A stretch of 64,000 nt of DNA from the NCBI GenBank assembly GCA_011390635.1, contig JAABSA010000018.1:1-64000 (forward strand), written 5' to 3'. Numbering within the stretch: the first letter of the stretch is position 1; each line of letters starts with the position of its first letter. Shown here piece after piece: positions 28,465 to 52,860 of this stretch. The DNA comes from Desulfotignum sp. GTDB lineage: Bacteria; Desulfobacterota; Desulfobacteria; Desulfobacterales; Desulfobacteraceae. Both the position numbers and the translations under genes were made by a program. Under the pieces are notes generated by a model. It was not told where the DNA came from and ran no database searches. It saw nothing but the letters and a program-made list of their open reading frames with translations.

Positions 28465-29286
28465 CTAAGCCAGTGCGGCTTTTCTTATCCGCAACGGTTC
28501 AGGGGTGAAAACAGGCCCGGAAATGCTGGTGGAGGTCATCGATTCATTGAGTTCCTGCTCAGCCCCGTAAATATCGCGCACCACCGACGGGGTGAGTTTG
28601 GACGGCACATCATCAAACACGATGCAGCCCTGGAGCATGCCGATCACCCTGTCACAATAGGTCCTTGCCGTATCCAGGGTGTGCAGGTTGCACAACACGG
28701 TCAGATTGTCCCGGTCCCGGATCTCCCGCAGGGCGGTCATTACTTTTTCCGCGCTCAAAGGATCCAGGGAGGCGATGGGCTCATCCGCCAGCACCATTTT
28801 CGGCTGCTGCATCAGGGCCCGGGCAATGGCCACCCGCTGCTGCTGTCCCCCGGACAGGGTTTCGGCCCGCTGCAGGGCCTGGTCCGCAATCCCCAGGCGG
28901 TCCAGGGCGGCCAGGGCTTCATCCACCAGGTGCCGGCCGAAAATACAGAACAGGCTCTTGAGGGTGCTGTGGCCGTTCAGCCGGCCCATGAGCACATTGG
29001 TTACCACGTTCAGCCGGGGCACCAGGTTGAACTGCTGGAAGATCATGGCACAGTCCCGCTGCCACCGCCGTTTTTCCCTGCCCGAAAGCTGCAGTATGTC
29101 CCGGTCATTGATCCGGATGGATCCCCGGGTGGCATCGGTGAGCCGGTTGATCATGCGCAGCAGCGTGGATTTTCCGGCCCCGGAAGGCCCGATCACGCCT
29201 ATCATCTGGGGCTGGTCAATGGAAAAGGACACCGCATCCACAGCGGTTATTTTTCCGAATGTCTTGGTCAGATCTGTTATTTTCAT
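28465..29286 (-). CDS. phnC: phosphonate ABC transporter ATP-binding protein
   Basis: A 273-residue ABC ATPase of the PhnC group. Walker A is [11 protein letters not shown] (about 34-44), the signature is [15 protein letters not shown] and Walker B is MVLADEP. It is the last of four transport genes read leftward (phnD, phnE, phnE, phnC), 43 bases after the long permease gene. The complex imports phosphonates, and possibly phosphite or phosphate esters, for the C-P lyase encoded at 50-56.7 kb. Confidence 0.93.
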
Positions 29287-29329
29287 GGCATCCTCAATTG
29301 GTTTGGATAAAAAGGATCATCTGCAATGA

Positions 29330-30688
29330 TCATGTTCCGGACCGGCCGTGAATCAGGCGGCTCCGCAATTTTCCGGAAACCGTGTCCATGACCATGACCA
29401 GAGAAATGGTCAGCAGAATGAGATAAAATACATTTTCCCAGTGGCGCTGGGTGTTCATGGCTTCCACCAGCATCAGGCCGATGCCTCCGGCACCCAGGGC
29501 ACCGATGATGGTGGCGGACCGGACATTGGCCTCCAGGTAGTACAGGGTCTGGGATACAAACACTGGAATGATCTGGGGAATGACACCGAACCGGTAAAAC
29601 TGCAGACGGTTGGCTCCGGTGGCATGGACCCCTTCCATCTGTTTTCGGTTGACCCCTTCCAGGGCCTCGGAAAACAGTTTGCCCAGAGACCCTGTGTCGG
29701 TAAAGGCGATGGCCAGGGCACCGGTCAGGGGTCCCAGGCCAAAGGCCCGGATAAAGATCAGGGACCAGATGAGCATGTCAATGCCCCGTAAAAAGTCGAA
29801 CAGCCGGCGGACGGCAAACCGCAGGGCCTGTGCCGGTGTGAAGTTGGCTGCTGCCAGCACCGCCAGGGGCAGTCCCACAAGAGCAGCGGTAATAGTACCC
29901 AGCACCGCCATCAGAAAGGTTTCCAGCAGGGCCACAAACACCTGTTTGTGCTGCCAGCCCGGATTGTTCCAAAAAGTAGTTGCCATCAGGCGCCAGTTGG
30001 CCATGTCAGGGTCGAGCCGGTGGTCTGAAAATGCCAGTGAAAACAGCTGCCCCGGAGAATATCCGGCAAGTTCCGAACGGAAAGGGAAGAAAAAGTTCTC
30101 CCAGCCCATAAAATACCGGTGCACCTCGATCCGTGCTTTGGACACCTGGACCCGCCGGCCGATGGTGGGCCGGGCGTCGAATTTGGCAGGCGTGGCCCGG
30201 AGCCAGTCCGGCGGGTCCACGCCCCGGGGCAGGGTTGTCTCGATGCCCGCATCCGTTATCCTGACATGGACCGGGCCGATGTCCGGTATTTGAAATACCA
30301 CATGGGTATCGTAAATATCCACCTGGTATCCCCGGCCAAGATCCACACGGCTCATGTCATCGGAAACTGTCACCCACCCGGGGGGTGTTTCATAGGTGGC
30401 GGTGCGCTCGCCTTCCACTGCAATGGAAAGACCGCCCGCACCTCGGATGTTTTTGGTGACATGGACCTTGTGGGCCACGGCATCGGTGGCCAGCATAACC
30501 GCCCGCTGGGGCTGGGACCTGCTGATCAGGTGCCATAGATCAAAAGAGATGAAGGTGTACAATAAATACAGGACCGTCAGCCCGGTTCCTGCCATGATCA
30601 TCAGGCTCTCGCGCCGGACTCGGAAAAACACGGCGGTTGATCCGGTGATCGGTTCCGGCGGCTGTATGGCCAGGGTGGATGATGTCAT
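29330..30688 (-). CDS. phnE: phosphonate ABC transporter permease, long form
   Basis: A 452-residue PhnE permease, much longer than the usual 260-290. After a first helix (about residues 32-52) there is a polar stretch of about 190 residues, rich in beta-type sequence and likely extracytoplasmic. The normal permease core follows (about 255-445) with the EAA loop seen in EALEGVNRKQMEGVHATGA and FYRFGVIPQIIP. The extra domain may dock the binding protein or sense substrate, by inference. It lies 12 bases downstream of the shorter permease, and the two probably form a heterodimer. Confidence 0.88.
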   Translation of the reverse strand: MTSSTLAIQPPEPITGSTAVFFRVRRESLMIMAGTGLTVLYLLYTFISFDLWHLISRSQPQRAVMLATDAVAHKVHVTKNIRGAGGLSIAVEGERTATYETPPGWVTVSDDMSRVDLGRGYQVDIYDTHVVFQIPDIGPVHVRITDAGIETTLPRGVDPPDWLRATPAKFDARPTIGRRVQVSKARIEVHRYFMGWENFFFPFRSELAGYSPGQLFSLAFSDHRLDPDMANWRLMATTFWNNPGWQHKQVFVALLETFLMAVLGTITAALVGLPLAVLAAANFTPAQALRFAVRRLFDFLRGIDMLIWSLIFIRAFGLGPLTGALAIAFTDTGSLGKLFSEALEGVNRKQMEGVHATGANRLQFYRFGVIPQIIPVFVSQTLYYLEANVRSATIIGALGAGGIGLMLVEAMNTQRHWENVFYLILLTISLVMVMDTVSGKLRSRLIHGRSGT

Positions 30689-30700
30689 GGGGGTTCCTTT

Positions 30701-31582
30701 CTATTCTGAATCCCTGCCGGTCACCAGGCGCCGGCGGATAAAAGAGGACAATTGGTCGATAACAAAAATGGACAGAATCAGCAGCACAAAAAGGGCTGCA
30801 GTCTCATCACCGGCCCCTTTGCCCCAGCCGATAGTGCGCCGCAGTTCCATGCCGATGCCCCCCGCGCCCACAAAGCCTAAAATGGCCGATGCCCGCACAT
30901 TGATTTCAAACCGCAGCATAAAATAGCTCAGGTAGTTGGGCAGCACCTGGGGAAGCACCCCGTACCGCATGCGCTGCAGCCAGGTGGCACCGCAGGATGC
31001 CAGTCCTTCCACAGGATCTGCATCGGCATTTTCATTCACCTCTGAGAACAGTTTTCCCAAAGCCCCGGCCGTGTGGATGGCCACCGCGATCATGGCCGGC
31101 ACCGGGCTGGAACCCAGGATAAAAATCAGAAACAGGGCGATGATCAGTTCCGGAAACGCCCGCATGATGTCCATGATCCGCCGGACAATGGTTACCACCA
31201 CCGGGGGCTTGACCCCCAGGTTGGCGGATCCCAGAAAAGCCAGCACCACAGCCAGAGCTCCGCCCACGATGGAGGCGGCCCCGGCAATGTTCAGGGTTTC
31301 CACCAGGGCCGGAACAAACCGGCCCATGAGCGGAAAAAACGAAAAACCGGTGGCCCATGCCTCTTTGACAATCTCGGCAGGATAGTCGAAAAACTGCTTC
31401 ATTCCGGTGAGAAATCCGCCGGAATTCAAGTCGTTTGCCATTCCGTATCCGGAGATCAGGACCGCTGCAACAAGAACAATGCCTGCCATGGAATAGAGGC
31501 GGCGTTTTTTTTCCATGGCCATGATTTCAGTCTGGATGGCGTGCAGAGACATGGATTGCATCCTTTGGGTAACAGGAATCAC
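30701..31582 (-). CDS. phnE: phosphonate ABC transporter permease
   Basis: A 293-residue PhnE permease of normal length with about six membrane helices. The cytoplasmic EAA loop is seen in DPVEGLASCGATWLQRMRYG. The N-terminal 25 residues are polar. It pairs with the longer permease encoded directly downstream. The binding-protein gene ends 53 bases upstream. Confidence 0.9.
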   Translation of the reverse strand: MIPVTQRMQSMSLHAIQTEIMAMEKKRRLYSMAGIVLVAAVLISGYGMANDLNSGGFLTGMKQFFDYPAEIVKEAWATGFSFFPLMGRFVPALVETLNIAGAASIVGGALAVVLAFLGSANLGVKPPVVVTIVRRIMDIMRAFPELIIALFLIFILGSSPVPAMIAVAIHTAGALGKLFSEVNENADADPVEGLASCGATWLQRMRYGVLPQVLPNYLSYFMLRFEINVRASAILGFVGAGGIGMELRRTIGWGKGAGDETAALFVLLILSIFVIDQLSSFIRRRLVTGRDSE

Positions 31583-31635
31583 ATATGATGGAGGCTGACA
31601 GTGCCATCAGCCGCCATCATAATGCTTTACTGCAA

Positions 31636-32565
31636 TTAATTGGATTTGGCTTTTCGTGCTGCAATGATACTCAGGTAATCGGAATGATCGATGGGTGCAA
31701 TGGCCTTGATTTCACCGGCCATGAAACCATAGGCACATTCCGCATCCATGGAAGGCAGGCTGGCCAGCATGGCGGTGATTTTGAGCTTCACCGATTCCGG
31801 CAGGTCCTTGCGCAGTACAATGGGACCTTCCGGAATCACTTTGGACCGCCAGATCTCCTGGATCTGGGTCATGTCCACCAGGCCGGCATCCGCAGCTTTT
31901 CTCAGTGCCCCGCTGTTGTATCCGTCCACCCAGTTGCCAATGCCGCAGGCCCAGGTCACCCCGCCGTCAATATCCCCATTGGAAACCGCCACAATGGTCT
32001 GTTCATGGCCCCCGGTAAATTTGACTTCCTTGAAATAAGCACCGGATTCCATGGGATATCCGGCCTGGGGGATTTCAATGGAGGGAATCAGGTATCCGGA
32101 GGTGGAATTGGGATCGCCAAATCCGAACACTTTTCCCTTCATGTCGTCCAGGCTTTTAATTCCACTGTCCACCCGGGCAAATCCGATGGCGTGATATCCG
32201 AATGACCCGTCTGTGTTTATCTTGGTGAGCACCGGCTCCACCGCATCCGGGTTGGTCAAAAACACCTTGGCATAGCCGGATGCCCCCAGCCAGGCCATGT
32301 CCAGGTTTCCGCCCAGAAGCCCCTCGATCACCCCGTTGTAATCTGCCGGAGCGTAAATTTTGGTGGGAACCCCCAGCACCTGTTCTGCTTTTGCACGCAG
32401 ACATTCATTGGACCGCAGCCGGTCCGAGGCGTTTTCACCGCCCAGAATGCCGATACGAAATTCCGTGATGGTTTCCTGGGCCATGGCGCCTGTGGCAGAA
32501 ATCCACAGGGCCAGAACTCCGATAAAAAACAATTTGGTTTGTGTCATCCATGTCCTGTACTTCAT
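31636..32565 (-). CDS. phnD: phosphonate ABC transporter substrate-binding protein
   Basis: A 309-residue periplasmic binding protein of the PhnD family with a signal peptide cleaved near residue 29 (after ATGAMA). Family wording includes FRIGILGGENASDRL, PADYNGVIEGLLGG, MAWLGASGYAKVF and GFGDPNSTSGYLIPS, where the Ser and Thr residues normally bind the phosphonate oxygens. It is the first gene of the transport operon. AAGGAG lies seven bases before the start. No clear Pho box was found in the 246-base divergent region. Confidence 0.93.
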   Translation of the reverse strand: MKYRTWMTQTKLFFIGVLALWISATGAMAQETITEFRIGILGGENASDRLRSNECLRAKAEQVLGVPTKIYAPADYNGVIEGLLGGNLDMAWLGASGYAKVFLTNPDAVEPVLTKINTDGSFGYHAIGFARVDSGIKSLDDMKGKVFGFGDPNSTSGYLIPSIEIPQAGYPMESGAYFKEVKFTGGHEQTIVAVSNGDIDGGVTWACGIGNWVDGYNSGALRKAADAGLVDMTQIQEIWRSKVIPEGPIVLRKDLPESVKLKITAMLASLPSMDAECAYGFMAGEIKAIAPIDHSDYLSIIAARKAKSN

Positions 32566-32811: not shown

Positions 32812-35532
32812 ATGACAGAAACCAGGGGGTTCCAGCAGAACATCCAGCAGGCTTTCCAGAAACAACTGGCCAGTCACCGGAGGGCGGTGCCGGCAAAAGC
32901 GTGCATTAAAATCGATCTGCACTGCCATGACTGCAACTCCGATGTGACAGACGAGCTTCTGGGCAGAATTCTGCGGTTTCCGGAAACCTGGCTTCAGACA
33001 GAGGACCTGGTAGCCTGTCTTGCGGAAAACCGGTGCAATGCCGTCACTATCACCAACCACAACAATGCCAGGTCCTGCTGGGATCTTTTGGAAAAGGGCC
33101 GGGATGTCCTGCCGGGCGCAGAATTCACCTGCTATTTCAAAACATTCAATACCCATCTGCATGTGCTGGCCTACGGTTTCACCCCGGCCCAGGAGGAAAC
33201 ACTCAATGGGTTGAGAAACGATATTTTTGCGTTTATCAGCTATGCGGCAGACCAGGATATTCCGACCCTGCTGCCCCATCCTTTGTATGTCAATGCCGGC
33301 AGCGGCCGGCCTGATCCTGCCATGTTCGAGCAGCTGGTGCTCATGTTCGACCGGTTTGAGGTGCTCAACGGCCAGCGGGATGTATGGCAGAACCTGCTGA
33401 TCTGGGAATGGCTGGACAGCCTGACCGAAGAACAGATCGATCTGTGGCAGAAAAAGCACGGGATCAGGGCCGCAAATTTCTGCAGATCCATTTATAAAAA
33501 ACAGGTGACCGGGGGATCCGACGACCATATGGGCCTTTTTGCCGGTACCTGCGGTACCTGGATGCATGTGTCGAACCTGGAGGACAAAACAAGACAAACC
33601 CCCATGTCACAGCTGGCCCTGGAAGCCTTGCGGACAGGTACGCTGCATCCCTATGGCAGTGTCACCATTCATGAAAAGCTCAATATCGCCTTTATCGATT
33701 ACCTGTCCCAGATCGCATTGCACATGAAAGAACCCGGCCTGGTGCGCATGTTTCTTCATAAAGGCAGCCTGCGGGACAAACTGATCTGCCTGGGATTCAG
33801 CAATGCCATGCAGGAACTGCGGCGTCACAGGTTCACCCTGTTTTTTTTCAAATCCTTTCACGAAGCACTGCACGGCAGGCGGCCCAGCCTGATGAGCCGG
33901 TTCAGGGTCACACCGGATTTCAGGCCTTTGATCCGGAAAATCGATGAGATTGCCCGGGCAAAAAACCGGTCCAGAGACCTGTATTTCGATCTGCTGAAAA
34001 CCGGCTCTTCCCGGATGTTCACCAGTCTGAACCAGATCATTGCCAGGCGCATCAAAGCCCAGGCCGCACAACTGAAAGATCTGGACATTACCCGGGCCGT
34101 GGACACCGCAGATCTGATCCGCAAATGTGAAATCCCTTCCCACTTCCGCGCATTGTTTGAACAAGAGGCGGACCCGTCTTTTGATCACGGATCCCGGATC
34201 AATGTGCCGGAATTTTTCGATACCCTGTCATTCCCGGTGCTGGCCTGGGCGGTCATTGCAGGGGCATCCCTGCTTTCCACCCGGGTACTCATGGGCCAGC
34301 GGGAGTTTGTGAACGGGTTTGCGCAGGTCATGGGCAGACATACGCATCCCCGGCGGGCCCTGTGGCTCACGGACACCCTTTGTGACAACAACGGGGTATC
34401 TGCCTCTTTGACCAGAAAGCTTGCATTTATCCAGACCCATGACATGCCCGTTGATTTTCTCATCTGTCATGACCGGATAAAGCCGTCCCCCCATTTAACG
34501 GTGGTGCCGCCTGTGGGGAGCTTTGCTTTTCCCGGTTATCCGGACCAGGTATTTTATGTGCCGGACCTTCTGGCAGTGAAAGAGATATTTATCCAGGGTG
34601 GATATGACCGGATCATCTGCTCAACCGAACTGCTGATGGGCCTGTTGGCCCTGTTTCTCAAACACGCCATGGGCGTTCCAGTATATTTTTTCATGCACAC
34701 GGACTGGCTGGAATTTTTCAAATACACCACCCAGCTGTCACCTCCGGGCATGGACCGGCTCCGGCGGACCCTGCGGGCTTTTTACCGCCAGTGTGACCAT
34801 ATTTTTGTGTTGAACCAGGACCATTTTGACTGGCTGGTGGGACCGGCCATCGCCTATGATGCAGCCCGGGTGTACAAAACCGCCCACTGGGTGGATGACA
34901 ATTTTTATCCCCGACCCGGAAACCGGCAGCACTTTTTCAAGGGACAGATAACTGACACTGACATCGTGCTGCTGTATGCAGGACGGCTGAGCGAGGAAAA
35001 AGGGGTGTTTGACCTGCCAATGATCCTGGAGCATCTGGAAGAAAATGCCGCAAATGTCAAACTGGTGATTGCAGGCACCGGCCCTGCACAGGACCGTCTG
35101 AAAACGTGTCTGCCAAACGCTGTGTTCCTCGGGTGGGTGGACAAAGAACAGATGCCGGAACTGTATTCCAGGGTGGACCTGCTGGTGCTGCCGTCCCGGT
35201 TTGATACTTTCGGCAATGTCATCCTGGAGGCCATGAGCTGCGGGGCGGCTGTGGCTGCCTATGCGGAAAAAGGACCGCTGGACATCATCCAGACACAGCA
35301 AAACGGCATTCTGGCCGATGACATCACCGGTCTGGCCGCCGGCATTGCCTGCTTTGCTAAGGACGCCGCCCTGCGCAGGCATCTGAAGGAAAACAGCCTG
35401 GAACGGGCAAAGGCGTTTTCATCTGAAGCTATTTTTCACCGGTTTTTAACACATCTGGGACTGGCAGATGCGGCTGAGGTCCCTGTTTTTGACAAAAATA
35501 TCCGGCCGGTGAAAAAGTCACACGCCGCATAG
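32812..35532 (+). CDS. PHP-domain / GT4 glycosyltransferase fusion
   Basis: A 906-residue two-part protein. Residues 30-290 form a PHP-type phosphoesterase domain: IDLHCHDCNSD, TITNHNNARSC (Asn where most PHP proteins have Asp), GAEFTCYF, TLLPHPLY and TGGSDDHMG give most metal ligands. Residues about 500-890 are a group 1 glycosyltransferase with the nucleotide-sugar site near FDTFGNVILEAMSCGAAV and YAGRLSEEKGVFD. A helical middle part joins them. It is divergent from phnD and lies beside phospholipid-type genes. The PHP part could act on a cyclic phosphate or a phosphoglycan, but both substrates are unknown. Confidence 0.8.
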   Translation: MTETRGFQQNIQQAFQKQLASHRRAVPAKACIKIDLHCHDCNSDVTDELLGRILRFPETWLQTEDLVACLAENRCNAVTITNHNNARSCWDLLEKGRDVLPGAEFTCYFKTFNTHLHVLAYGFTPAQEETLNGLRNDIFAFISYAADQDIPTLLPHPLYVNAGSGRPDPAMFEQLVLMFDRFEVLNGQRDVWQNLLIWEWLDSLTEEQIDLWQKKHGIRAANFCRSIYKKQVTGGSDDHMGLFAGTCGTWMHVSNLEDKTRQTPMSQLALEALRTGTLHPYGSVTIHEKLNIAFIDYLSQIALHMKEPGLVRMFLHKGSLRDKLICLGFSNAMQELRRHRFTLFFFKSFHEALHGRRPSLMSRFRVTPDFRPLIRKIDEIARAKNRSRDLYFDLLKTGSSRMFTSLNQIIARRIKAQAAQLKDLDITRAVDTADLIRKCEIPSHFRALFEQEADPSFDHGSRINVPEFFDTLSFPVLAWAVIAGASLLSTRVLMGQREFVNGFAQVMGRHTHPRRALWLTDTLCDNNGVSASLTRKLAFIQTHDMPVDFLICHDRIKPSPHLTVVPPVGSFAFPGYPDQVFYVPDLLAVKEIFIQGGYDRIICSTELLMGLLALFLKHAMGVPVYFFMHTDWLEFFKYTTQLSPPGMDRLRRTLRAFYRQCDHIFVLNQDHFDWLVGPAIAYDAARVYKTAHWVDDNFYPRPGNRQHFFKGQITDTDIVLLYAGRLSEEKGVFDLPMILEHLEENAANVKLVIAGTGPAQDRLKTCLPNAVFLGWVDKEQMPELYSRVDLLVLPSRFDTFGNVILEAMSCGAAVAAYAEKGPLDIIQTQQNGILADDITGLAAGIACFAKDAALRRHLKENSLERAKAFSSEAIFHRFLTHLGLADAAEVPVFDKNIRPVKKSHAA

Positions 35533-35602
35533 TACATAGTATCGCTGCACTGGAAAGCTTGAAAAAGCGGAACTGTCTCAATAAAAAATCGGGGTCTGTT
35601 TC

Positions 35603-36019
35603 TCAAAAATACGGGAAGGACTGCTTTTTTTCAATTTCCTCCAGGGCTTTGATGGACAGGGTGGCCCAGGGCTGCACTTCCAGACGTCTTTCATCGATGG
35701 GTTCGCCGGTGAGTTCACAATAGCCGAATCCACCCTCTTCAATTCTTTCCAATGCCCTTTCAATCTGGGTGATCAACACATCACAGCGCCGGGAAAAATC
35801 GATCTCCTTTTCAATGCTGCTCATCAGGATACTCTGGTCCACCACATCCGCATGTTTCATTCTCAGGCTGCGGATATTTTTTTTGATGTCAGACCTTTTC
35901 CGGACCAGATCCTGTTGTTTGGCCAGCAGTTTTTCTTTGAACCAGGACAGCTTTTCATTGTCCAGACAAGGGATGAAAGCATTGTTCATATCAGTGGATG
36001 ACGGCAGTAACCTTTTCAT
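35603..36019 (-). CDS. DksA/TraR-family protein with one zinc-finger cysteine
   Basis: A 138-residue DksA-like protein. A long coiled-coil (about residues 25-95) is followed by the C-terminal globular part FGYCELTGEPIDERRLEVQP. Only one of the four zinc ligands remains, at CELTG, and the final pair is replaced by ATLSIKA. Zinc-free DksA forms of this kind are known in other bacteria and still act on RNA polymerase. The coiled-coil tip lacks an obvious DxxDxA motif, so activity is uncertain. CAGGAG precedes the start. Confidence 0.78.
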   Translation of the reverse strand: MKRLLPSSTDMNNAFIPCLDNEKLSWFKEKLLAKQQDLVRKRSDIKKNIRSLRMKHADVVDQSILMSSIEKEIDFSRRCDVLITQIERALERIEEGGFGYCELTGEPIDERRLEVQPWATLSIKALEEIEKKQSFPYF

Positions 36020-36104
36020 GGCAGACTCCTGATAAATATTTATGATACCTTGTATATGTAACCCGGTACCGTTATACCGGTATTATTGCAGTATTAAAAA
36101 TGGA

Positions 36105-37157
36105 TTAAACCCTTGTTTTTTCTACATGAAAGAAGATGCTGGATCCGGTGACCACGCTTTTTCCGGTGTGGAGAAAGGCGGCGGCCCAGACCCCCTGGAC
36201 AAAAAGAACCATCCAGGGATTCCAGAGGGTGGAAACCGCCTCATGGAGCCGGGGCAGGGGCAGGCTGCCGTCCACCGGCAGCAAAAGGGCCATGGCACCG
36301 GCACAACCAAGGGTCGCCAGGGCCATGATCTGATAGGCAGAGATGTTGAGACCGCCCCTGAAATCCGCCCGGAGAAATTCGGAAACAAACCGCCATATCT
36401 GTGTGACGGCCAGGGTGATCAGAAAAGCAAAGCGAAAGTATCCATTCAGAAACAGGGCCGTGCCCGCCAGTCCGGTACCTGTATACAGGGCTGCCGTAAT
36501 GATCTGCACCGGCAGCACTTTTTGCCCGTCATACCCGGATGCATAGGTGATCTTTTTCAAGGGACCGGTAAACACCAGGTAAAACCGGGAAAACAGCTTC
36601 CGGATGTACGGATGGCACTGGTCCAGGGGTTTGCCGTAGCAGCAGCCGAAGCTGAGACAGGCCAGGCGGCCCAGGCCTTCGCCGAATGCATAGGCAATGG
36701 ATACCGCAGACAGCAGCACCATCGGCTGCACAGGACCAACCATGACCGGTCCAGGGATCCGGTTGATGAAAAACAACAGCACAGGTGACACCAGGATGCC
36801 GGCAAACACGGCCCCGCCCACGGTCAGGGTGCCTTTCTTTTTTTCCACTATCCGGGCGATGATCCTGGAGGCGGGCAGACAGGCGGCAAGTACGCCGGCG
36901 ACAAACAGGCACACCCCGGCCAGGGGTATCCGGGCGGCAGTGGCGAGAATCAGAAACAGGATCACGGCAAAGGTATAGGCATTGGCGGACAGGAGCCCGT
37001 AATAAGTGAGATTAAGGCCCTGCCAGCCGGCTCCGGTTTTGTGCCGGGGCAGCACCGCCATGATCTGCCATTTTTCCTCTGGCAGGGATCTGAACCCCCA
37101 CCACAACGATCCTGCCACCATCATTGCCATACCTGTGATAAAAATGATCTGGTCCAT
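36105..37157 (-). CDS. Lgt-like prolipoprotein diacylglyceryl transferase-family membrane protein
   Basis: A 350-residue protein with seven to eight membrane helices. The stretch GEGLGRLACLSFGCCYGKP (about residues 160-178) matches the Lgt signature region, in which the arginine and following glycines serve diacylglyceryl transfer to lipoproteins. The usual second signature HPXXLYE is not clear, and the loop QCHPYIRKLFSRF is atypical. Its ATG overlaps the stop of the decarboxylase gene (TGATG), so the two are coupled. It may transfer a lipid group to another acceptor, by inference. A small CCGGTA/TACCGG hairpin lies downstream. Confidence 0.7.
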   Translation of the reverse strand: MDQIIFITGMAMMVAGSLWWGFRSLPEEKWQIMAVLPRHKTGAGWQGLNLTYYGLLSANAYTFAVILFLILATAARIPLAGVCLFVAGVLAACLPASRIIARIVEKKKGTLTVGGAVFAGILVSPVLLFFINRIPGPVMVGPVQPMVLLSAVSIAYAFGEGLGRLACLSFGCCYGKPLDQCHPYIRKLFSRFYLVFTGPLKKITYASGYDGQKVLPVQIITAALYTGTGLAGTALFLNGYFRFAFLITLAVTQIWRFVSEFLRADFRGGLNISAYQIMALATLGCAGAMALLLPVDGSLPLPRLHEAVSTLWNPWMVLFVQGVWAAAFLHTGKSVVTGSSIFFHVEKTRV

Positions 37158-38197
37158 CAGACGGCCTTTCCTATGGTTTCTCTGACCTGGATATCGGTTT
37201 CCACCAGCGGGATGCAAAAATGGGTCGAGAAACGGGTTTTCACATCACAGCGCCGGGTGTTTTCCACCAGATCCCGGCAGAATTGGATGCGGTTTTTTTC
37301 ATATATCAATACCACCGTGGAACTGCCGGGCCTGAACAGGCTTTTGGGCTGGCCTTTTTTCAAAAACACGCCCTTTTGCACCGGCATGACCGGATCATAC
37401 CGGTCCGGGCTGAAGCATTGCACGATGCGCCCGATCATCAGGGCCACAATCTCCACCATGGCCACCAGTCCCACACCGGTTCCGTTTGCCACATCCGTGT
37501 CAATAATGGTCACCACCCGGCGGTTTTTGGAATACGGGGTGACCGACTGCACCACAGCCCCGGGATTGCAGGAATGGTACCGGCCGTTGATTTCATATAT
37601 ATCCACCACATTTCCCGATACCGGGGCGTGGTTGTAGTGGTATTTGTCCGGTGTCAGGCGGAACACGGCATAATCCCCGTGTCTGAATGCCCTGCGCCAC
37701 CGGACCCTGTCCATTCCGATCAATTCGTCATACTGAAAGAATTTTTCCTTGATGAACAGGTCGCCGGAATCTGCAAAAGAGCCTGTCAGGACCCGGGCAT
37801 CTGCCGGCGACACCACAGCCCAGGGATCATCTGTCATGGGCCGGCATTCCCAGAACCGGATTTTGCGTTCAAAAAACCGGCGCAGGGTGTTCAGCCCGTC
37901 CACCGAACCGTATATATCTCCGGCAGGAATACCCATGCGGTGCAGGAGCCCGGCAGGATCTGAGATGGTTTTTTTCAGGGGCAGGTCGTAGCAGAGAAAT
38001 CCCAGAAACGCCGAAGCCCTGGCAGAGACCAGAAGATTGAACATGCCCGGGGCATTTTCCCGGATCACGGAATACAGCGTGCAGATGGTCCGGTCATACA
38101 ACAGGTTTTCGGTTTTTATCCCGGTTGTCTCCCGCTGGATATACTGGTGAACATGGCGGTTCATCGGGCAGGAGGCAGCTGCGTTAACAGGGTTCAT
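37157..38197 (-). CDS. psd: phosphatidylserine decarboxylase-like protein
   Basis: A 346-residue PSD-family proenzyme. Conserved segments are VSPADARVLTG (near residue 130), RLTPDKYHYNHAPVSG, which carries the catalytic histidine, and the self-cleavage site FRPGSSTVV near 305, where GSS replaces the usual GST. Cleavage there would create the pyruvoyl group. The protein also has an N-terminal extension of about 90 residues. It overlaps the 803-residue gene by 14 bases and the Lgt-like gene by three, so a shared pathway is likely. Whether the substrate is phosphatidylserine or a related phospho or phosphono lipid is unknown. Confidence 0.82.
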   Translation of the reverse strand: MNPVNAAASCPMNRHVHQYIQRETTGIKTENLLYDRTICTLYSVIRENAPGMFNLLVSARASAFLGFLCYDLPLKKTISDPAGLLHRMGIPAGDIYGSVDGLNTLRRFFERKIRFWECRPMTDDPWAVVSPADARVLTGSFADSGDLFIKEKFFQYDELIGMDRVRWRRAFRHGDYAVFRLTPDKYHYNHAPVSGNVVDIYEINGRYHSCNPGAVVQSVTPYSKNRRVVTIIDTDVANGTGVGLVAMVEIVALMIGRIVQCFSPDRYDPVMPVQKGVFLKKGQPKSLFRPGSSTVVLIYEKNRIQFCRDLVENTRRCDVKTRFSTHFCIPLVETDIQVRETIGKAV

Positions 38198-40595
38198 GCA
38201 GACGGCTCTCCAGGTTCACGTATAACATGATCAGAAAAATCAGCTTTTTGGTATTTTCCACACAAATGGTTCCGTCCATCAGGGGCGTTTTTACCTGGTG
38301 TAAAAATGATTCCAGGCTCTGGCCGGGGAGAATAGTACTGATAACATCCTTTAAACCCGGCTCCCTGAAACTGGCCCACAGGTCCATTCGGGTAAATTCA
38401 TTGACCAGGGTCTTGAACCCTTCTGCCATATGCCGGGTGCAAAGGGTGTCCCGGTAAAAGGTTTCCGCATACCCGTTAAAGGTATCTCCGGCATAGTGCA
38501 TGGGGTTTTTTTTCTTTTGGGTGTGTAAAATCCCGGTAACCAGTTTTCCCCCGGCGGACCGGCTTTCCGGGGAGTTGATCCGGCCCTGCAGGTCAGCCAG
38601 GGAAGCCTGCATGCGGAAAGATTCCACCAAAGCCCTGCCATCGGTCTGGAGGGTGTCGATCAGGGCCTGTTTGTAATCGTGGATTTTGATTCGGGTATAT
38701 CCCGGATACCGCCGGCTTTTGCGGGTGTTGGGAATCCGGGATACGATTTTGACAAGAAACCGGTTCGAGTTGTCGGTCTTGACGTAACAGGTGGGCAGGT
38801 TGAGGGCGGCACAGAAAAACATCTGCCGCCGTTCGCTTTCCACCCCGGGGGTGTCGGGAATCATGGCATGGGTGACATCCTTGTTGAGAATATACTGAAA
38901 GGCAAGGGCCGTGATCAGCGTCTGCATGTCTGCAGCCCCTCCCATATCGGCAGGGATATCTTCAAAAATGCTGTAGTACCGGTGCTCAAACCCGCTGTAT
39001 CCCATGCGGTCAAATTCCCTGAGCCGGACCAGCTGGTACAGGGGCATACGGGTATCAAAAATACCCATCTGGGCCAGGTCACTGCCCAGCCGGACACTGT
39101 TTCCCGGTGTGCCGTCCAGGGCGGGACTCTGGTCGGTACTCATCAGCGAAACCAGGTAGTCCACCAGCCGGAAATCCGGTACAAAGTCTCCTTTGAGTCC
39201 TAATGTCGTGCTGATGAACCGATCCAGCCAGACCGGACCGAATGGGGTGACGGCCTGACCCAGGATACGGTTGGCAGCCTTCTTTTTCCACCGCCGCCAG
39301 ATCATGCGCAGATGGGTGTAATCCAGTTCATGGGGAAGAAATCCCAGGATTTTTTCCGGATGAAAGTCTTCAAAATTGAGGCGGAATGGGGAGGCGCTGT
39401 AGGTGCCGGGAAACAGGCATAAAAAATGCTCCGCCACTTTGATGGCCAGATCGCCTAAGTGTTTTTCATGCACTGCGGTGAACCCGGATCCCGGATCTGC
39501 CATAAGCCCGGAGAGTTTCCGGCTGCCGATACTGATGTGGGTGCCGTTGTTGGCCAGGCTGATATTGGAACTGCTGGGCAGGATCACCAGGTTTGAATTG
39601 ATGATGCCGGCTTCCTTGAGTTTGGCAATGGCGTTGATCTGGCTTCTGGACAGCACCTCATGACACAGTTTCATATAGGCGTGTTTTTCTTCGCCCCGGT
39701 TCCATCCCGACAGGCAGGGGCTCATGAAAAGATAGCGGTAGAAGGCATCGGAGAGACATGCATTGAGCCGGTGCTGCATCACCGGCGGAGAAGCGGAAAA
39801 ATACACCCGGACCTGCTGGCCGTTATCCATAAGACCCAGTTTCTGTTCCGCATACCGCACCAGCAGCTGGGTGAACAAAAACCGGATCAGGGTTTCCGTG
39901 GCAAGGGTACGGCCGATTCCACGGGACCCGGCTCCGGACCGCACAGGGTGAAAGGAAAAAATTTCAGGCGAGGTGTTGTCATTAAGAAAATGGTCCATCA
40001 TCCGCTCCCCGGTCTGTTTGATGCGCGGATGAATCAGGGGGGCCGACCCGATGACATCCGCCAGGGACAGTTTGAGCAGATAGGAAACCGGCACCCGGAT
40101 CATGTTCTCTCCGGCCCTGGTAAACCTGAACTGTCCGGCATCCGACCGGAGGCCGGTACCAGGATTTGTCTTGTCCGCATGCAGATCTGCGGCAAACACC
40201 TCCCGGGCAAAGGTGTTGAGACACTGTTCAGGAAACCGGACCCAGGAATTTTCCCAGACATCGTTTTTCTGTTCCAGATACCGTTCCAGAGCAGTGATCG
40301 TTTTCCGTGACGTGTCACCTGATGCGGCCCGGCGGACCATGTTCTTGAAAAAATTGGCAGACTCAATGGTTATTGGGAGGTCCACATCCTCTCGTTTTCC
40401 CAGCACCACGGCCTGGAACTCATTTTCCGCACCCGCGGTGACATCCCTGAAGGAAAAGGGCAGCGATTCAACAAACGCCTCCATGGATCCGGTCTTGATT
40501 TCCAGGGCAGGATACAAAAAGGTCAGATCGGTTCCGGTCATGGAAGACCGGACCGGTGGTCTTTTGTTTTCAGGTGCTGCCTGTATGGCGGGCAT
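38184..40595 (-). CDS. unrecognised 803-residue protein
   Basis: I do not recognise this protein. It is 803 residues, soluble by appearance, with no signal peptide and no membrane helix. Notable segments are GAGSRGIGRTLATETLIRFL near residue 225, VILPSSSNISLANNGTHISI near 338, a GFLPHELDYTHLRMIWRRW stretch near 415 and a basic, Arg/Lys-rich region near 640 (RIPNTRKSRRYPGYTRIKI). No Walker or Rossmann motif and no acyltransferase HX4D could be confirmed. It overlaps psd by 14 bases, so it probably works in the same pathway. An alternative start exists at residue 19. The ribosome site GGGAGG is 12 bases before the chosen ATG. Confidence 0.7.
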   Translation of the reverse strand: MPAIQAAPENKRPPVRSSMTGTDLTFLYPALEIKTGSMEAFVESLPFSFRDVTAGAENEFQAVVLGKREDVDLPITIESANFFKNMVRRAASGDTSRKTITALERYLEQKNDVWENSWVRFPEQCLNTFAREVFAADLHADKTNPGTGLRSDAGQFRFTRAGENMIRVPVSYLLKLSLADVIGSAPLIHPRIKQTGERMMDHFLNDNTSPEIFSFHPVRSGAGSRGIGRTLATETLIRFLFTQLLVRYAEQKLGLMDNGQQVRVYFSASPPVMQHRLNACLSDAFYRYLFMSPCLSGWNRGEEKHAYMKLCHEVLSRSQINAIAKLKEAGIINSNLVILPSSSNISLANNGTHISIGSRKLSGLMADPGSGFTAVHEKHLGDLAIKVAEHFLCLFPGTYSASPFRLNFEDFHPEKILGFLPHELDYTHLRMIWRRWKKKAANRILGQAVTPFGPVWLDRFISTTLGLKGDFVPDFRLVDYLVSLMSTDQSPALDGTPGNSVRLGSDLAQMGIFDTRMPLYQLVRLREFDRMGYSGFEHRYYSIFEDIPADMGGAADMQTLITALAFQYILNKDVTHAMIPDTPGVESERRQMFFCAALNLPTCYVKTDNSNRFLVKIVSRIPNTRKSRRYPGYTRIKIHDYKQALIDTLQTDGRALVESFRMQASLADLQGRINSPESRSAGGKLVTGILHTQKKKNPMHYAGDTFNGYAETFYRDTLCTRHMAEGFKTLVNEFTRMDLWASFREPGLKDVISTILPGQSLESFLHQVKTPLMDGTICVENTKKLIFLIMLYVNLESRLHEPC

Positions 40596-40699
40596 GGCGG
40601 ATTCGATCCTCCCTGCAGGTTCTGTTTTCGACTGTCCGGGAGAATTATCCGCCTCAAGTGTTGGAAATGAATTACCTTACTGATAGAATTGTGTTTCAA

Positions 40700-41350
40700 T
40701 CAGTATTTTTCGATAAACGCTTCCACATCATACAGGTCCTTGAACCCCTGTTCCAGTTTTTGCCGGGGCCAGTCCCAGAAGCGGATCTCCAGGAGCCGGT
40801 TGATGATTCTTTCGGGAAACCGTTTTTTAAGGGGTTTTGCAGGGGAGCCGGCCGCAATTTCATAGGGGCCCACCGGATGGGTCCTGGTGACAACAGATCC
40901 TGCAGCCACAACGGCTCCGTCGGCAATGGCTGCGCCGGGCATCACATAGACCCCGTGCCCCAGCCAGACATCATGGCCGATGGTCACGGCATCCTGTTTG
41001 CGCCATTCAAAAAATGCCGCATCATCCTGGTCGGCAAACCCGTACTGCCGGCACCGGTAGGTGCAGTGGCTCTGGGTGACACGCTGATAAGGATGGTTCC
41101 CCGGATTGATCACACAATGGGAAGCAATGGAGGAGAATCTGCCGATATCGCACCAGATGGCCCGGACACTGGTAGACAGATAGGAATAGTCCCCCAGGGA
41201 GATTTCATTGCAGAAGCACCCGGCCTCCACCTCGGTGTATTCTCCGAACCGGGAGCGGATCACAGTAGATGATTCATGGATCAACGGGTGGGGGAACAGC
41301 TTTTTTTCCGTAAGTTCATTATTGGCGGATGAGCGGGTGATTTCGCGCAT
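40700..41350 (-). CDS. phosphonate-metabolism hexapeptide-repeat transferase
   Basis: A 216-residue left-handed beta-helix acyltransferase-type protein. The hexapeptide repeats run from about residue 30 to 180 (VEAGCFCNEI, GHDVWLGHGVYVMPGAAIADGAVVAAGSVV). The wording, including ASHCVINPGNHPYQRVTQSH, fits the family of transferases found in C-P lyase clusters. It could acetylate an aminophosphonate or a phosphonate-pathway sugar. It is the first gene of the minus-strand run that continues to the 803-residue gene, 104 bases away. Confidence 0.78.
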   Translation of the reverse strand: MREITRSSANNELTEKKLFPHPLIHESSTVIRSRFGEYTEVEAGCFCNEISLGDYSYLSTSVRAIWCDIGRFSSIASHCVINPGNHPYQRVTQSHCTYRCRQYGFADQDDAAFFEWRKQDAVTIGHDVWLGHGVYVMPGAAIADGAVVAAGSVVTRTHPVGPYEIAAGSPAKPLKKRFPERIINRLLEIRFWDWPRQKLEQGFKDLYDVEAFIEKY

Positions 41351-41501: not shown

Positions 41502-41861
41502 TTATGTGACAAGTTCAAATACCACTCGTAACGCCTGGTTGATTTCTTTCATCTTCTCCAGAGGCAATTTTCCCCGGATATTGACCAGTCTGAGACGGTA
41601 GTCGATGGGACGGGTTTGCAAACAGTCTGCTATTGATTTCTTGGACAACCCATTATCGGATGAAGGAAAAATTTCGATATTGGTTTTAATCCGTGCTTTT
41701 TTGGCTCGCCATTCCGTAATCGGGACCACCTGGATAACAGGTACCCTTTCATTGTAAATATCGTTGGTCACAACAATGCATGGCCTGGTTTTTCCTGTTT
41801 CCGACCCTTTAGCAGGCTCCAGATTGACATCAATGACCATCCCTCTTTTCAGCACCGTCAT
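41502..41861 (-). CDS. MazF/PemK-family toxin
   Basis: A 119-residue endoribonuclease-type toxin. The MazF fold is seen in LKRGMVIDVNLEPAKGSETGKTRPCIVVTNDIYN and PITEWR (given in pieces: KRGMVIDVNLEP, then KTRPCIVVTND). Such toxins cut mRNA at short sequences. The ATG at 41861 overlaps the antitoxin stop (ATGA). An ATG three codons earlier is also possible. It forms a two-gene module with the upstream antitoxin gene and ends in an AT-rich spacer beside the phn block. Confidence 0.87.
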   Translation of the reverse strand: MTVLKRGMVIDVNLEPAKGSETGKTRPCIVVTNDIYNERVPVIQVVPITEWRAKKARIKTNIEIFPSSDNGLSKKSIADCLQTRPIDYRLRLVNIRGKLPLEKMKEINQALRVVFELVT

Positions 41862-42091
41862 TCCGGCCATCCGTTTATGGCAATTTCGGTCAGTTCTTTG
41901 AGGTCCTCGTCTTCACTGTACACTTCAGCGTAAAGATCCGCCGACTTTTTCAGGCGTTCCTGTTCTTTTTCTTTCCTGAAATGTTCTATGGCCGCGCGGA
42001 GCATGGCGCTTTTATCTTTGAATCCATAACTTTTAAAGTTTTTTAAAAACTGGGCCTGTGTTTCTTCAACACTGAATTTGGCCTGTAACAT
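41858..42091 (-). CDS. antitoxin of the MazF module
   Basis: A 77-residue acidic protein with a short ribbon-helix-helix-like N-terminal part (SVEETQAQFLKNFKSYG, DKSAMLRAAIEHF) and an acidic C-terminal tail (YAEVYSEDEDLKELTE), the usual layout for a DNA-binding antitoxin that neutralises its toxin with the tail. It overlaps the toxin gene by four bases. The family could not be named from sequence alone, and the assignment rests mainly on position. Confidence 0.7.
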   Translation of the reverse strand: MLQAKFSVEETQAQFLKNFKSYGFKDKSAMLRAAIEHFRKEKEQERLKKSADLYAEVYSEDEDLKELTEIAINGWPE

Positions 42092-50020: not shown

Positions 50021-50950
50021 TCAGACCCGGCCGTTACTTGCCGCCACCAGGGCGGACAGGTTGTCCAGGGAGGTTTTTGTGTCGGAAAAGTAGCGGCTGC
50101 GCAGCTCCATGATCAGGAGCCCGTCATAATCGGGCAGCAGGGTATCCAGAATGGCCTGGATGGGGATTTGTCCGTATCCCACGGGCATGTGGGAATCTCC
50201 CTTTCCGAATGGCAGCTGGTGGGTCTGCTGCTTTTCCCAGTGGTGCACCGTTCCCCCGAAGTTGTCATGTACATGGGTGTGGACCACCAGGTCCCTGATC
50301 TGTGTCACCGCTGCGACAGGATCAAAAGCGTAAAACCGAGATGCCATAAACAGGTGGCCGAAATCCAGGTTGATCTTCACATTGTCCCGGTTGACCCGCA
50401 GGATCTGTTCCCTGAGGGGGCCGACACATTCTGCATAGGTGTAAGGGCTCTGGCTCAGGTAGGGCCTGGCGTTTTCCAGTGCGATCATGACATCCGGATA
50501 TTGTCCGGCAAGCTCCTGCAGCAGCTGTGCTTCTGCCTCAAGCATCCGGTGCTGTTCTGATGCTGTCAGGGACCGGGCCGGGGTGACGGAAAAATCTTCT
50601 TCCGCAATGAACCGGCCGCTGTGCACCACCACCACGTGTGCGTGGATCTGCCGGGCAAATTCCAGGGAGGCCTCCAACACCGCTTTGTGCAGGGCCGGAT
50701 CTGTTCGGTCCATCATGTTCACAGGGTTGGGGGAATGAATGGAATAGCAAAAGTCAAACTCCGAGAGCAGGGACATCACCTGCCGGGTTCTGGCCATGCG
50801 CAGGGTGCCGTTAAAAATGGCATCCAGCCCGTGGACCGGCAGTTCCACCGCCTGGATGCCGATCTTGTCAAATGCCTGTAAATCTTTGGTCAACCGGTCC
50901 AGAGATCCGTCGATCCGGACCGGGTCGATACTTGCACCGATATAGTTCAT
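50021..50950 (-). CDS. TIM-barrel sugar-phosphate isomerase/epimerase-like protein of the phn operon
   Basis: A 309-residue xylose isomerase-like TIM barrel (AP endonuclease 2 family). Metal-ligand type segments are CYSIHSPNPVNMM, HVVVVHSGRF, IALENARPYL, INLDFGHLF and VVHTHVHDN. Its start overlaps the phnM stop (ATGA), so it belongs to the C-P lyase transcript as the last gene. PhnP and PhnN are not seen in this window, so a role in processing the ribosyl phosphate product is possible, but this is inference. Confidence 0.8.
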   Translation of the reverse strand: MNYIGASIDPVRIDGSLDRLTKDLQAFDKIGIQAVELPVHGLDAIFNGTLRMARTRQVMSLLSEFDFCYSIHSPNPVNMMDRTDPALHKAVLEASLEFARQIHAHVVVVHSGRFIAEEDFSVTPARSLTASEQHRMLEAEAQLLQELAGQYPDVMIALENARPYLSQSPYTYAECVGPLREQILRVNRDNVKINLDFGHLFMASRFYAFDPVAAVTQIRDLVVHTHVHDNFGGTVHHWEKQQTHQLPFGKGDSHMPVGYGQIPIQAILDTLLPDYDGLLIMELRSRYFSDTKTSLDNLSALVAASNGRV

Positions 50951-52122
50951 GCAACTGCCTCATGGGTTTCGGTTTTACATACAATATGACCCTTTACCAG
51001 GGTATGGTTGATATGGGCCCAGGTGTGGGAATGATCCACGATAATGATATCCGCATCCGCACCGGGAACCAGCCGGCCGGGCTGTCCCGGCAAATTGAGG
51101 TAAGCGCCGGGACCGGCAGTAGCCTGTCCGAGGGCTTCTGCCATATCCCCGGTGAATTTTTGCCCGAGAAATGCCGCCTGGAGAAGCGATTCCGGGTAAT
51201 AATCGGAAACCAGCCCGGTGCACAATGTTTGTTTCAAGAGATCCGATGTTTTTACATTGCCGCTGGTGGACTGGTCCCGCACCAGGTTGGGAGCGCCCAT
51301 GAAAATTTTCAATCCCCTGGCAAAGGCCTTTTGGGCCGCCTGCCGGGTGACGGGAAATTCACTGGCCCCGATGCCCAAAGCGCAGATCAGATCGATTTTT
51401 TCGCTGGTGTCGTCATCATGGCTGAGCATGGGAATGCCTGCCGAACCAACGGTGTCTGCCAGGGCTTTGACCATTTCCCAGGCCCGGGGATTTTTCTGCT
51501 GTTTTTCTCTGGCCTTTTCCAGAACAATGGTTTCCGGCACCTGGTATTCAACGGACTGGAAGCGGATATAGGATTCCATGGATTTGAACTGACCCTGGCC
51601 CGGGGTATGATCCATGATGGAAACCAGGTCCACCAGGCCCTGCTCCGCCAGACGGATGACAATATGGAAGCTGTGTTCAGACCCCACTTCATACCGGATA
51701 TGGACCCTGTGTTTCACCAGGGCCTGGGGGGAATCGTTAAAGGCCCTGATTTTGCGCACACAGGCTTCCGCCTCTTTCGGTGACCGCAGCCCCAGCTCAT
51801 TGTCTGCAAAACTCACTGCATGACAAAAGGTGGTGATGCCGCAGGCAGCGGCCTGGCGGTCCAGGTTCAAGATGGCAAAATCAATATCAAAGAAAACCCC
51901 TTTGCGTTTTTCAATGCTTCTTTCCAGGCTGTCTGAATGCAGGTCCACCAGGCCGGGCATGATGAGCCGGCCCTGGACATCTATCACCTCGGCATTGACC
52001 ATGTGAATGGTATCTGCAAAAGTGTGCACAATTTTATGGTCTTCGATCAATACGGTGCCTTCGGAAGACAAAGATTTTCCGTCAAACAAAGGACCACCGA
52101 GGATCAGTCTTTTTCGGGGCAT
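50947..52122 (-). CDS. phnM: alpha-D-ribose 1-methylphosphonate 5-triphosphate diphosphatase
   Basis: A 391-residue amidohydrolase-fold enzyme. Metal ligands are in GLVDLHSDSLER (near residue 58), and the family wording FFDIDFAILNLDRQAAACGI, SIMDHTPGQGQF and PMLSHDDDT follows. It removes pyrophosphate from the triphosphate intermediate of the C-P lyase pathway. It overlaps phnL by 19 bases and the TIM-barrel gene by four. Confidence 0.95.
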   Translation of the reverse strand: MPRKRLILGGPLFDGKSLSSEGTVLIEDHKIVHTFADTIHMVNAEVIDVQGRLIMPGLVDLHSDSLERSIEKRKGVFFDIDFAILNLDRQAAACGITTFCHAVSFADNELGLRSPKEAEACVRKIRAFNDSPQALVKHRVHIRYEVGSEHSFHIVIRLAEQGLVDLVSIMDHTPGQGQFKSMESYIRFQSVEYQVPETIVLEKAREKQQKNPRAWEMVKALADTVGSAGIPMLSHDDDTSEKIDLICALGIGASEFPVTRQAAQKAFARGLKIFMGAPNLVRDQSTSGNVKTSDLLKQTLCTGLVSDYYPESLLQAAFLGQKFTGDMAEALGQATAGPGAYLNLPGQPGRLVPGADADIIIVDHSHTWAHINHTLVKGHIVCKTETHEAVA

Positions 52123-52835
52123 GGCTGCATCATCTCCTGGTTTGTCATGGGGGCAAGGTCAATGGTATGGTCGGCAAATTCCCTGTGGTCTGCCGGGTCA
52201 TGGAATACGCCGATGACACAGGTGTTATCCGCCAGGGTTTCTTTGATGAGATCAATGACTGTGCGGCGGTTTTTCAGGTCCAGGGAAGCGGTGGGTTCAT
52301 CCAGCAGCAGGATGGGGAAAGGTGCGATAAATCCCCTGGCCAGGTTGATGCGCTGCTGCTCCCCGCCGGAAAAGGTGGTGGCGGAAAGGTGCCACATGTT
52401 GGACGGAATGTTGAGCCGTTCCAGAAGGGCTTTGCCTTTTTTCCGGGCCTGTGCCGGGTCCATGTTTCTGGCCAGCAGCGGCTCGATGACCGTATCCAGG
52501 GCTGACACCCGGGGAACTACCCGCAGAAACTGGCTCACATATCCGATGGTGTGTTTTCGAAGGGTGTAGATCATGGCAGGCCGGGCTGCGGCAATATCCA
52601 CCAGGTCTTCCCCGTGCCGGACCCGGATGCTGCCGGACCCGGTTTTATAGGTGGCGTAAATCATGCGCAGCAGCGTACTTTTTCCGGCACCGGAGGAACC
52701 GGTGAGAATGGTGGCCGAACCCGGATAGAATTGATGGGAAAATTGTTCAAACACAACAATCCGGGTCCCCTGCTGGTGGTGAAACACAAAATCTTTGCCG
52801 ATGCCATCCAGGCTGAGTATCCAGTGTGGGGTCAT
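52104..52835 (-). CDS. phnL: C-P lyase ABC-type ATPase subunit PhnL
   Basis: A 243-residue ABC ATPase without a permease. Walker A is [13 protein letters not shown], the signature FSGGEQQRINLARGF and Walker B ILLLDEPTASLD. With PhnG, H and I it takes part in forming the ribosyl-phosphonate triphosphate, and it associates with the core complex. It starts 25 bases after phnK and overlaps phnM. Confidence 0.94.
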   Translation of the reverse strand: MTPHWILSLDGIGKDFVFHHQQGTRIVVFEQFSHQFYPGSATILTGSSGAGKSTLLRMIYATYKTGSGSIRVRHGEDLVDIAAARPAMIYTLRKHTIGYVSQFLRVVPRVSALDTVIEPLLARNMDPAQARKKGKALLERLNIPSNMWHLSATTFSGGEQQRINLARGFIAPFPILLLDEPTASLDLKNRRTVIDLIKETLADNTCVIGVFHDPADHREFADHTIDLAPMTNQEMMQPCPEKD

Positions 52836-52860
52836 GGGGTCCTCTCAAGCAGGTGAAGGG

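Follow-up and report, generated by a model that had tools for sequence, protein, structure and literature searches.

What does the 803-residue protein encoded at positions 38184-40595 (minus strand) of the window do, and what joins its gene to the two lipid-type genes that follow it? The window, the whole stretch of DNA analysed here (64,000 nucleotides), is taken from contig JAABSA010000018.1 of Desulfotignum sp. (GCA_011390635.1). The gene is followed on the same strand by genes for a phosphatidylserine decarboxylase (PSD)-like pyruvoyl-dependent decarboxylase (37157-38197) and a non-canonical membrane protein with the predicted Lgt fold (36105-37157); these three genes, hereafter the cassette, lie at the places given in the first-pass annotation and overlap as it reported, by 14 bases at the first junction and by TGATG at the second. 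The Lgt-like gene starts at the ATG at 37157, and the listed open reading frame (ORF), 36105-37217, begins at an earlier TTG. Our bioinformatic analysis suggests that the 803-residue protein is probably part of an undescribed membrane-lipid modification pathway, because it combines a ligase fold with two near-constant lipid-type neighbours. The protein had been described as belonging to no recognised family, and this holds: neither Pfam nor NCBIfam gives a match above cut-off, and PADLOC and the PDB sequences give no match at all. The best Pfam value for 62 aligned members of its family is E 0.014, and the family profile searched against PDB gave a best E of 0.67, to unrelated chains. The GCS2 family (PF04107) is matched neither by the protein nor by the 62 members, and PF04107 has no match anywhere in its own genome.

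The predicted structure gives a clearer answer than these sequence searches. AlphaFold2 was run with the 62-row family alignment (A1) and returned a model of the 803-residue protein with a mean pLDDT of 89.7 and a pTM of 0.91, in which 22 residues fall below a pLDDT of 50 and residues 1-20 form the sole run of these. Foldseek placed GshF (3ln6) first (E 1.9e-3, probability 1.00), followed by GshA (3nzt; E 0.036, probability 0.98) and PafA (4bjr; E 0.046, probability 0.99). VIA-align, which was run on the candidates of Foldseek, so that the absence of other folds from its lists is not evidence against them, gave best Z scores of 16.1 for GshF, 15.6 for a YbdK-like protein, 15.4 for Escherichia coli GshA, 14.6 for Dop and 14.5 for PafA, and lower ones for plant glutamate-cysteine ligase (12.0), yeast glutamate-cysteine ligase (9.7) and type III glutamine synthetase (7.0 and 6.2). 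Rows 1-20 all belong to one superfamily (Z 16.1-9.7, 331-417 aligned residues), the top 22 include glutamine synthetase, and the unrelated chains that come after the superfamily rows start at Z 4.1. This ranking is the strongest evidence of the analysis. On the predicted model, the 803-residue protein very probably has the glutamine-synthetase/glutamate-cysteine-ligase fold of the carboxylate-amine ligases; instead of a clear match to an unrelated family, it falls in an enzyme superfamily that fits the earlier idea of a key enzyme for the cassette, which is thereby plausible.

The conserved residues of the protein can be compared with the hallmarks of the superfamily. As set out in PMC2588565, strand 1 of its members carries GhExE, strands 2 and 3 acidic residues, strand 4 [HD]x[NH] and strand 6 Ex[RK]x2D; strand 5 has an Arg, and a second Arg lies in the loop leading to it. 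In the 803-residue protein, the GhExE signature, a candidate metal/ATP motif, is found as G55-A56-E57-N58-E59 on the first long strand (52-65), with G, E and E in 61 of the 62 rows of A1 and a gap in the remaining one. E115 on strand 113-115 (Glu in 59 rows and Asp in three), D72 and D152 (both 62/62) are candidates for the acidic positions of strands 2 and 3. H353 (62/62) lies on strand 352-358, and the third position of this motif, S355, is Ser in 61/62 (HxS). R526 at the end of strand 523-526 and R476 before it are both invariant (62/62), as is each of E537, R539 and S542 of the motif E537-x-R539-x2-S542 on strand 535-541, in which Ser stands where the superfamily has Asp. The order of these motifs is that of the superfamily (PMC2588565), and the strands were equated by this order. 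We consider a ligase chemistry likely for the 803-residue protein.

A different reading of the same fold is that the protein is a Dop-like amide hydrolase or regulator trimming an amide of a head group or protein, with the PSD-like and Lgt-like proteins recycling lipids. Dop shares the fold and scores nearly equally (best Z 14.6), and on strands 4 and 6 the motifs of the 803-residue protein deviate from the canonical ones; the superfamily, however, is described in PMC2588565 as one of carboxylate-amine/ammonia ligases, and no tag protein shared between loci was found near the cassette. We consider this hydrolase reading quite improbable.

The second gene encodes a protein matching PF02666 (3.2e-40). 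Its best PDB matches are to solved phosphatidylserine decarboxylases (7cnw and 6l06; best E 8e-9), those to L-tryptophan decarboxylases being weak (E 0.04-0.84), and the NCBIfam model that it fits best is one for phosphatidylserine decarboxylase (1e-37, under the cut-off of that model). The GSS self-cleavage motif that had been noted in this protein is present at residues 291-293. In an alignment of 101 rows (92 of them distinct), D133, H190 and S293 are found in 101/101, G291 in 100/101 and S292 in 99/101. D133, H190 and the cleavage-site Ser of the GSS motif are catalytic positions of the PSD family, and by its sequence the protein is a PSD-family pyruvoyl decarboxylase with these residues intact. 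The genome encodes another Psd on contig C39 (151.5 bits), which was picked by its PSD-like motifs among six aligned ORFs of this genome, the other five being noise.

The third protein matches PF01790 with 27.5 bits against a cut-off of 24.9. Its AlphaFold2 model (pLDDT 91.3) aligns with E. coli Lgt (5azb) at Z 13.6 over 230 residues (3.7 A, 17% identity), the next row scoring 5.5. With E. coli Lgt as the only reference, residues were mapped through an hhalign alignment of low probability (0.7), the mapping being supported by its GR and FR anchors and by the fold match. R143 and R239 of E. coli Lgt correspond to R184 (63/64) and R283 (64/64) in the Lgt-like proteins. The counterpart of H103 is V, A, I, T, L, C or S and never His (64/64), those of E151 and N146 are an invariant Cys (the E151 position being Cys in 64/64), and N149 is replaced by Phe or Tyr. 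Substitutions of H103 and E151 abolish the activity of E. coli Lgt according to PMC4728403. The third protein, as modelled, thus has the Lgt fold and by the tested features is not an Lgt, since it lacks the His103 and Glu151 required in the E. coli enzyme. Three cysteines, C187, C192 and C193, are invariant in the motif GRxACxSFGCCYGK of the Lgt signature region, where two of them replace polar signature residues; they possibly serve redox or thiol-nucleophile chemistry. A high-scoring lgt (229.6 bits) is present on contig C17 of the same genome. Given these additional psd and lgt genes, the cassette probably does not serve housekeeping, and a replacement of the housekeeping genes by the cassette was rejected on the same ground.

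The two partner enzymes also bear on whether the substrate is a lipid from the start. On one account, the substrate is small and soluble: the amide formed by the ligase would be a gamma-glutamyl or peptide one, with the PSD-like enzyme decarboxylating the amino acid part and the Lgt-like protein adding diacylglycerol. The PSD family also acts on free amino acids, as the weak L-tryptophan decarboxylase matches illustrate, and structures of the GCS2/YbdK type match the 803-residue protein well (Z 15.6 and 15.2). Against this, the best PDB and NCBIfam matches of the PSD-like protein are phosphatidylserine decarboxylases and the recurring third gene encodes a protein with a membrane lipid-enzyme fold. 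We regard the small-substrate account as unlikely.

The linkage of the three genes was examined in a collection of genome contigs. Of 145 stretches matching the search pattern, 103 encode a relative of the 803-residue protein; the best 80 stretches were kept, giving 79 loci (L031-L109) with 78 distinct ORFs of the 803-residue type. A PSD-like gene in the same orientation and no more than 600 bases away accompanies the ligase-like gene in 74 of the 75 loci with at least 900 bases of downstream room. An Lgt-like gene is found at up to 2.5 kb in 65 of the 68 loci with at least 2 kb of room, and further away in L058 and L066. The ligase-like gene and psd thus travel together, with the Lgt-like gene, as the first-pass annotation had supposed they might; far from being absent from the neighbourhood, the partners are nearly always adjacent. 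Within the family, PSD comes next in 27 of 28 loci, which overlap in part with the 79 and so are not independent of them. The exception (G014) has HlyD- and FtsX/MacB-type exporter genes between the ligase-like gene and a normal PSD-Lgt pair; this arrangement is seen at 3265-7490 of L169, and an ORF of 235 residues also lies between the ligase-like and PSD genes. The pairwise distances of the three proteins correlate across 53 loci (r 0.72-0.74, reached by 0 of 999 permutations), as calculated without control for species relatedness.

The family is large and strongly conserved. A1 has a mean column identity of 57% and 106 invariant columns. The closest named relatives among the best 80 stretches are from Desulfotignum bins, with up to 90% identity. 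A relative was found in 36 of 86 genomes in a family-level search and in 36 of 296 genomes in a phylum sample, all 36 of the latter scoring above 1000 bits; no weaker relatives were found at E 0.001 in that sample. Named carriers include Desulfobacter, Desulfatibacillum, Desulfopila, Dethiosulfatarculus and Geobacteraceae bins, with one bin each of Brocadia, Nitrospina, Nitrospinae, Nitrospirae and Planctomycetota, though bin assignments are fallible. Record titles place 50 of the 79 loci in Thermodesulfobacteriota, and 13 of the 79 are labelled Myxococcota, a label we do not trust because many titles read only 'Deltaproteobacteria bacterium'. Two full-length copies of the ligase-like gene occur on contig C1 of G058, and on contig C66 of G035 the gene is split into several pieces.

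We propose that the cassette encodes a dedicated lipid head-group (aminolipid) pathway, which, with the roles set out here, we hold at somewhat less than even probability; that it acts on a lipid substrate at all has an even chance. The substrates and the order of reactions are what we infer from fold, linkage and conserved residues. The PSD-like enzyme would decarboxylate a serine-type head group, exposing a primary amine. The 803-residue ligase would then use ATP-Mg to turn a carboxylate into an activated acyl phosphate and join it to this amine in an amide bond, the carboxylate donor perhaps being gamma-glutamate, the usual one in the superfamily. Decarboxylation would come first and capping of the amine by the ligase second, because pyruvoyl chemistry proceeds through a Schiff base, which requires that the amine be free; this exact order is doubtful. 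The Lgt-fold protein would transfer or cleave a diacylglyceryl or phospholipid moiety in the membrane, with an acceptor other than a lipobox cysteine. Where present, a fusion of a PHP phosphoesterase and a GT4 glycosyltransferase (PHP-GT) may add or trim a part consisting of sugar or phosphate. The pathway would thus yield a membrane lipid, or a metabolite with a lipid anchor, that carries an amide modification and in some cases a sugar.

In the window, the PHP-GT fusion, recognised by family-library and BLAST matches, is encoded at 32812-35532 on the plus strand. Elsewhere it has a BLAST match near the cassette in 24 of the 79 loci, 19 of these matches covering the PHP part, and the PHP part is found in 12 of the 42 loci whose sequence extends 5 kb or more to each side of the ligase-like gene. 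The place of the fusion varies: L070 (54% identity) and L085 (as two ORFs) have it directly upstream, in L058 it comes behind PSD, and in L042, L082 and L092 it comes behind the Lgt-like gene (in the last the GT part alone was matched). Genome-wide, the PHP part is matched at E 1e-8 or better in 14 of 36 carriers of the ligase-like gene against one of 36 non-carriers (Fisher p 2.5e-4), the non-carriers from the phylum sample being eight of the same order plus the lowest-numbered others and not a random draw, with 16 of the 36 assigned by their absence from the complete list of 36 matching genomes. In five of the 14 carriers, the contig with the ligase-like gene also carries the PHP match. The PHP-GT4 fusion is a recurring, non-obligate partner of the cassette.

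Several points weigh against the proposed lipid pathway and its ligase. For the model of the 803-residue protein, all Foldseek matches in the PDB have E values above 0.001. The profile comparison of A1 with 33 GCS2/YbdK sequences by hhalign was not significant (probability 1.8), its best local match, TAGAENEFQAV against TLGIELEMQVV, falling on the expected strand, and that with E. coli GshA alone gave nothing meaningful (probability 0.3). The motifs HxS and ExRx2S are not the [HD]x[NH] and ExRx2D of the superfamily, and because of these deviations on strands 4 and 6 the catalysis may differ; ligation is also not certain, since Dop, with the same fold, is a hydrolase. In L105 (G400) the ligase-like gene stands alone, in a genome without a PSD-like or Lgt-like match at E 0.001. 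The correlation between the cassette proteins, being uncorrected for relatedness, counts here too, as does the PHP-GT test, which ignores phylogeny and leaves 22 of the 36 carriers without a PHP match. The lone gene of L105 (9833-12256), from Desulforhopalus singaporensis, is followed by xanthine-dehydrogenase-type genes.

The superfamily also includes the ligase of pupylation, and on a further reading the 803-residue protein joins a protein carboxylate to the amine of a lipid or lysine. PafA and Dop match it up to Z 14.5 and 14.6, and it is far larger than the GCS2 enzymes and carries insertions. Yet a survey from 2.5 kb upstream to 6 kb downstream in loci L031-L109 found 1099 ORFs of 25-110 residues, of which the largest similarity group has nine members; a Pup-like tag encoded by the cassette was rejected, as no small ORF is widely shared near it, and none of the ten recurrent neighbour groups that were annotated is a proteasome part. 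Such a pupylation-like role is very improbable. Equally improbable is a variant in which a PafA-like ligase links the aminophospholipid made by the partner PSD to a carboxylate, at the extreme one belonging to a protein, the Lgt-like protein finishing or reversing the anchor. If true, this would be a tRNA-independent lipid conjugation with an outcome analogous to Atg8-PE lipidation.

The first-pass annotation had read the cassette as possibly making or salvaging a phosphonolipid or glycophospholipid in company with the phn genes, and the surroundings in the window do suggest such a link. A phn-type hexapeptide transferase (40700-41350, minus strand; TIGR03308 phn_thr-fam, 229.9 bits against a cut-off of 201.65) adjoins the 803-residue gene upstream, and a DksA-like zinc-finger protein (35603-36019, minus strand; family-library match) is encoded after the Lgt-like gene, so that transcription of the minus strand runs from the hexapeptide transferase gene through the cassette to the DksA-like gene. 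A C-P lyase cluster (50947-56199, minus strand), on which the first-pass annotation is silent, lies about 9 kb upstream of the hexapeptide transferase gene and comprises PhnH, PhnI, PhnJ, two ABC ATPases and an amidohydrolase, the ATPases (PhnK/PhnL) and the amidohydrolase (PhnM) being named from gene order; with a xylose-isomerase-like TIM barrel included, it spans 50021-56199. The cassette sits between this cluster and phnDEEC (28465-32565, minus strand). The PHP-GT fusion and phnDEEC, which had been placed after the cassette genes, are both present, but they do not continue the same run: the fusion is on the plus strand and phnDEEC lies beyond it relative to the cassette, so phnDEEC is a separate unit.

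The comparison with other loci goes against the phosphono part of that reading. phnD/phnE lie near the cassette in only three of the 79 loci (L031, L033 and L050), all from Desulfotignum, and in two of the 48 loci whose downstream sequence reaches 8 kb or more. The functional phn link was rejected on the three-locus, one-genus count. The hexapeptide transferase is a same-strand neighbour only in loci of the genus Desulfotignum, the one match outside it (L010, 38% identity) being on the opposite strand. The DksA-like gene directly follows the cassette in four Desulfotignum loci only; a 29%-identical DksA-like match in L063 is on the opposite strand and further off. Moreover, C-P lyase degrades phosphonates, and the phn genes fit a separate island of phosphonate breakdown bracketing the cassette. 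A phosphonolipid pathway shared with the phn genes is thus highly improbable, and the aminolipid pathway remains the reading that we propose.

Other neighbours recur outside Desulfotignum. A DUF2062 protein is encoded after the cassette in 10 loci and a zinc-dependent phospholipase-C-like protein in 13; one or both follow the Lgt-like gene in L038-L041, L043, L045-L047, L051, L054, L057, L060, L107 and L108, mainly in Geobacteraceae, Desulfuromonadaceae and unplaced bins, as scanned with one representative per group. PADLOC gave no match for the 803-residue, PSD-like, Lgt-like or PHP-GT proteins, and a known anti-phage system was rejected for that reason. A MazF/PemK-like toxin gene lies at 41502-41870 of the window and at 9489-9884 of the close relative L031; its position relative to the hexapeptide transferase gene differs between the two, which suggests a mobile insertion. 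A plasmid search gave no match.

With this analysis, a large and strongly conserved family that Pfam and NCBIfam do not recognise gains a predicted fold, candidates for its catalytic residues and an operon that hardly varies. If the cassette does make an amide-modified lipid, it would represent a route to aminoacylated or peptidyl lipids that depends on ATP and not on tRNA, mainly among anaerobes, and would give an Lgt-fold protein a role other than lipoprotein maturation. No description of the three-gene combination was found among the papers listed by the literature searches, whose coverage did not extend to the 2009 amidoligase survey (Iyer et al.).

Each of the three proteins can be set beside a known system. 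The PSD-like protein shares with Psd the PF02666 domain and the Asp, His and GSS positions; it differs in being a second copy beside a short Psd encoded elsewhere and in falling under the cut-off of every NCBIfam model matched. The third protein has in common with Lgt the predicted fold and the counterparts of R143 and R239, and differs at H103, N146, N149 and E151, with a separate Lgt in the genome. With PafA and Dop the 803-residue protein shares the fold (Z 11.5-14.6) and the GhExE signature at 8-10% identity, whereas no small tag-like gene was found as a shared neighbour of the cassette. With GshA, GshF and YbdK it shares the fold over 338-417 residues (3.7-4.3 A, Z 14.6-16.1), the G-x-E-x-E of the first strand and the later conserved His, Arg and ExR; it differs in its identity of 11-14% without a Pfam GCS2 match, in its length (803 residues against about 350-520 in YbdK and GshA, GshF being a fusion of about 730-750), in its HxS and ExRx2S motifs and in its operon with PSD-like and Lgt-like genes. 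The 803-residue protein is a new family within a known superfamily.

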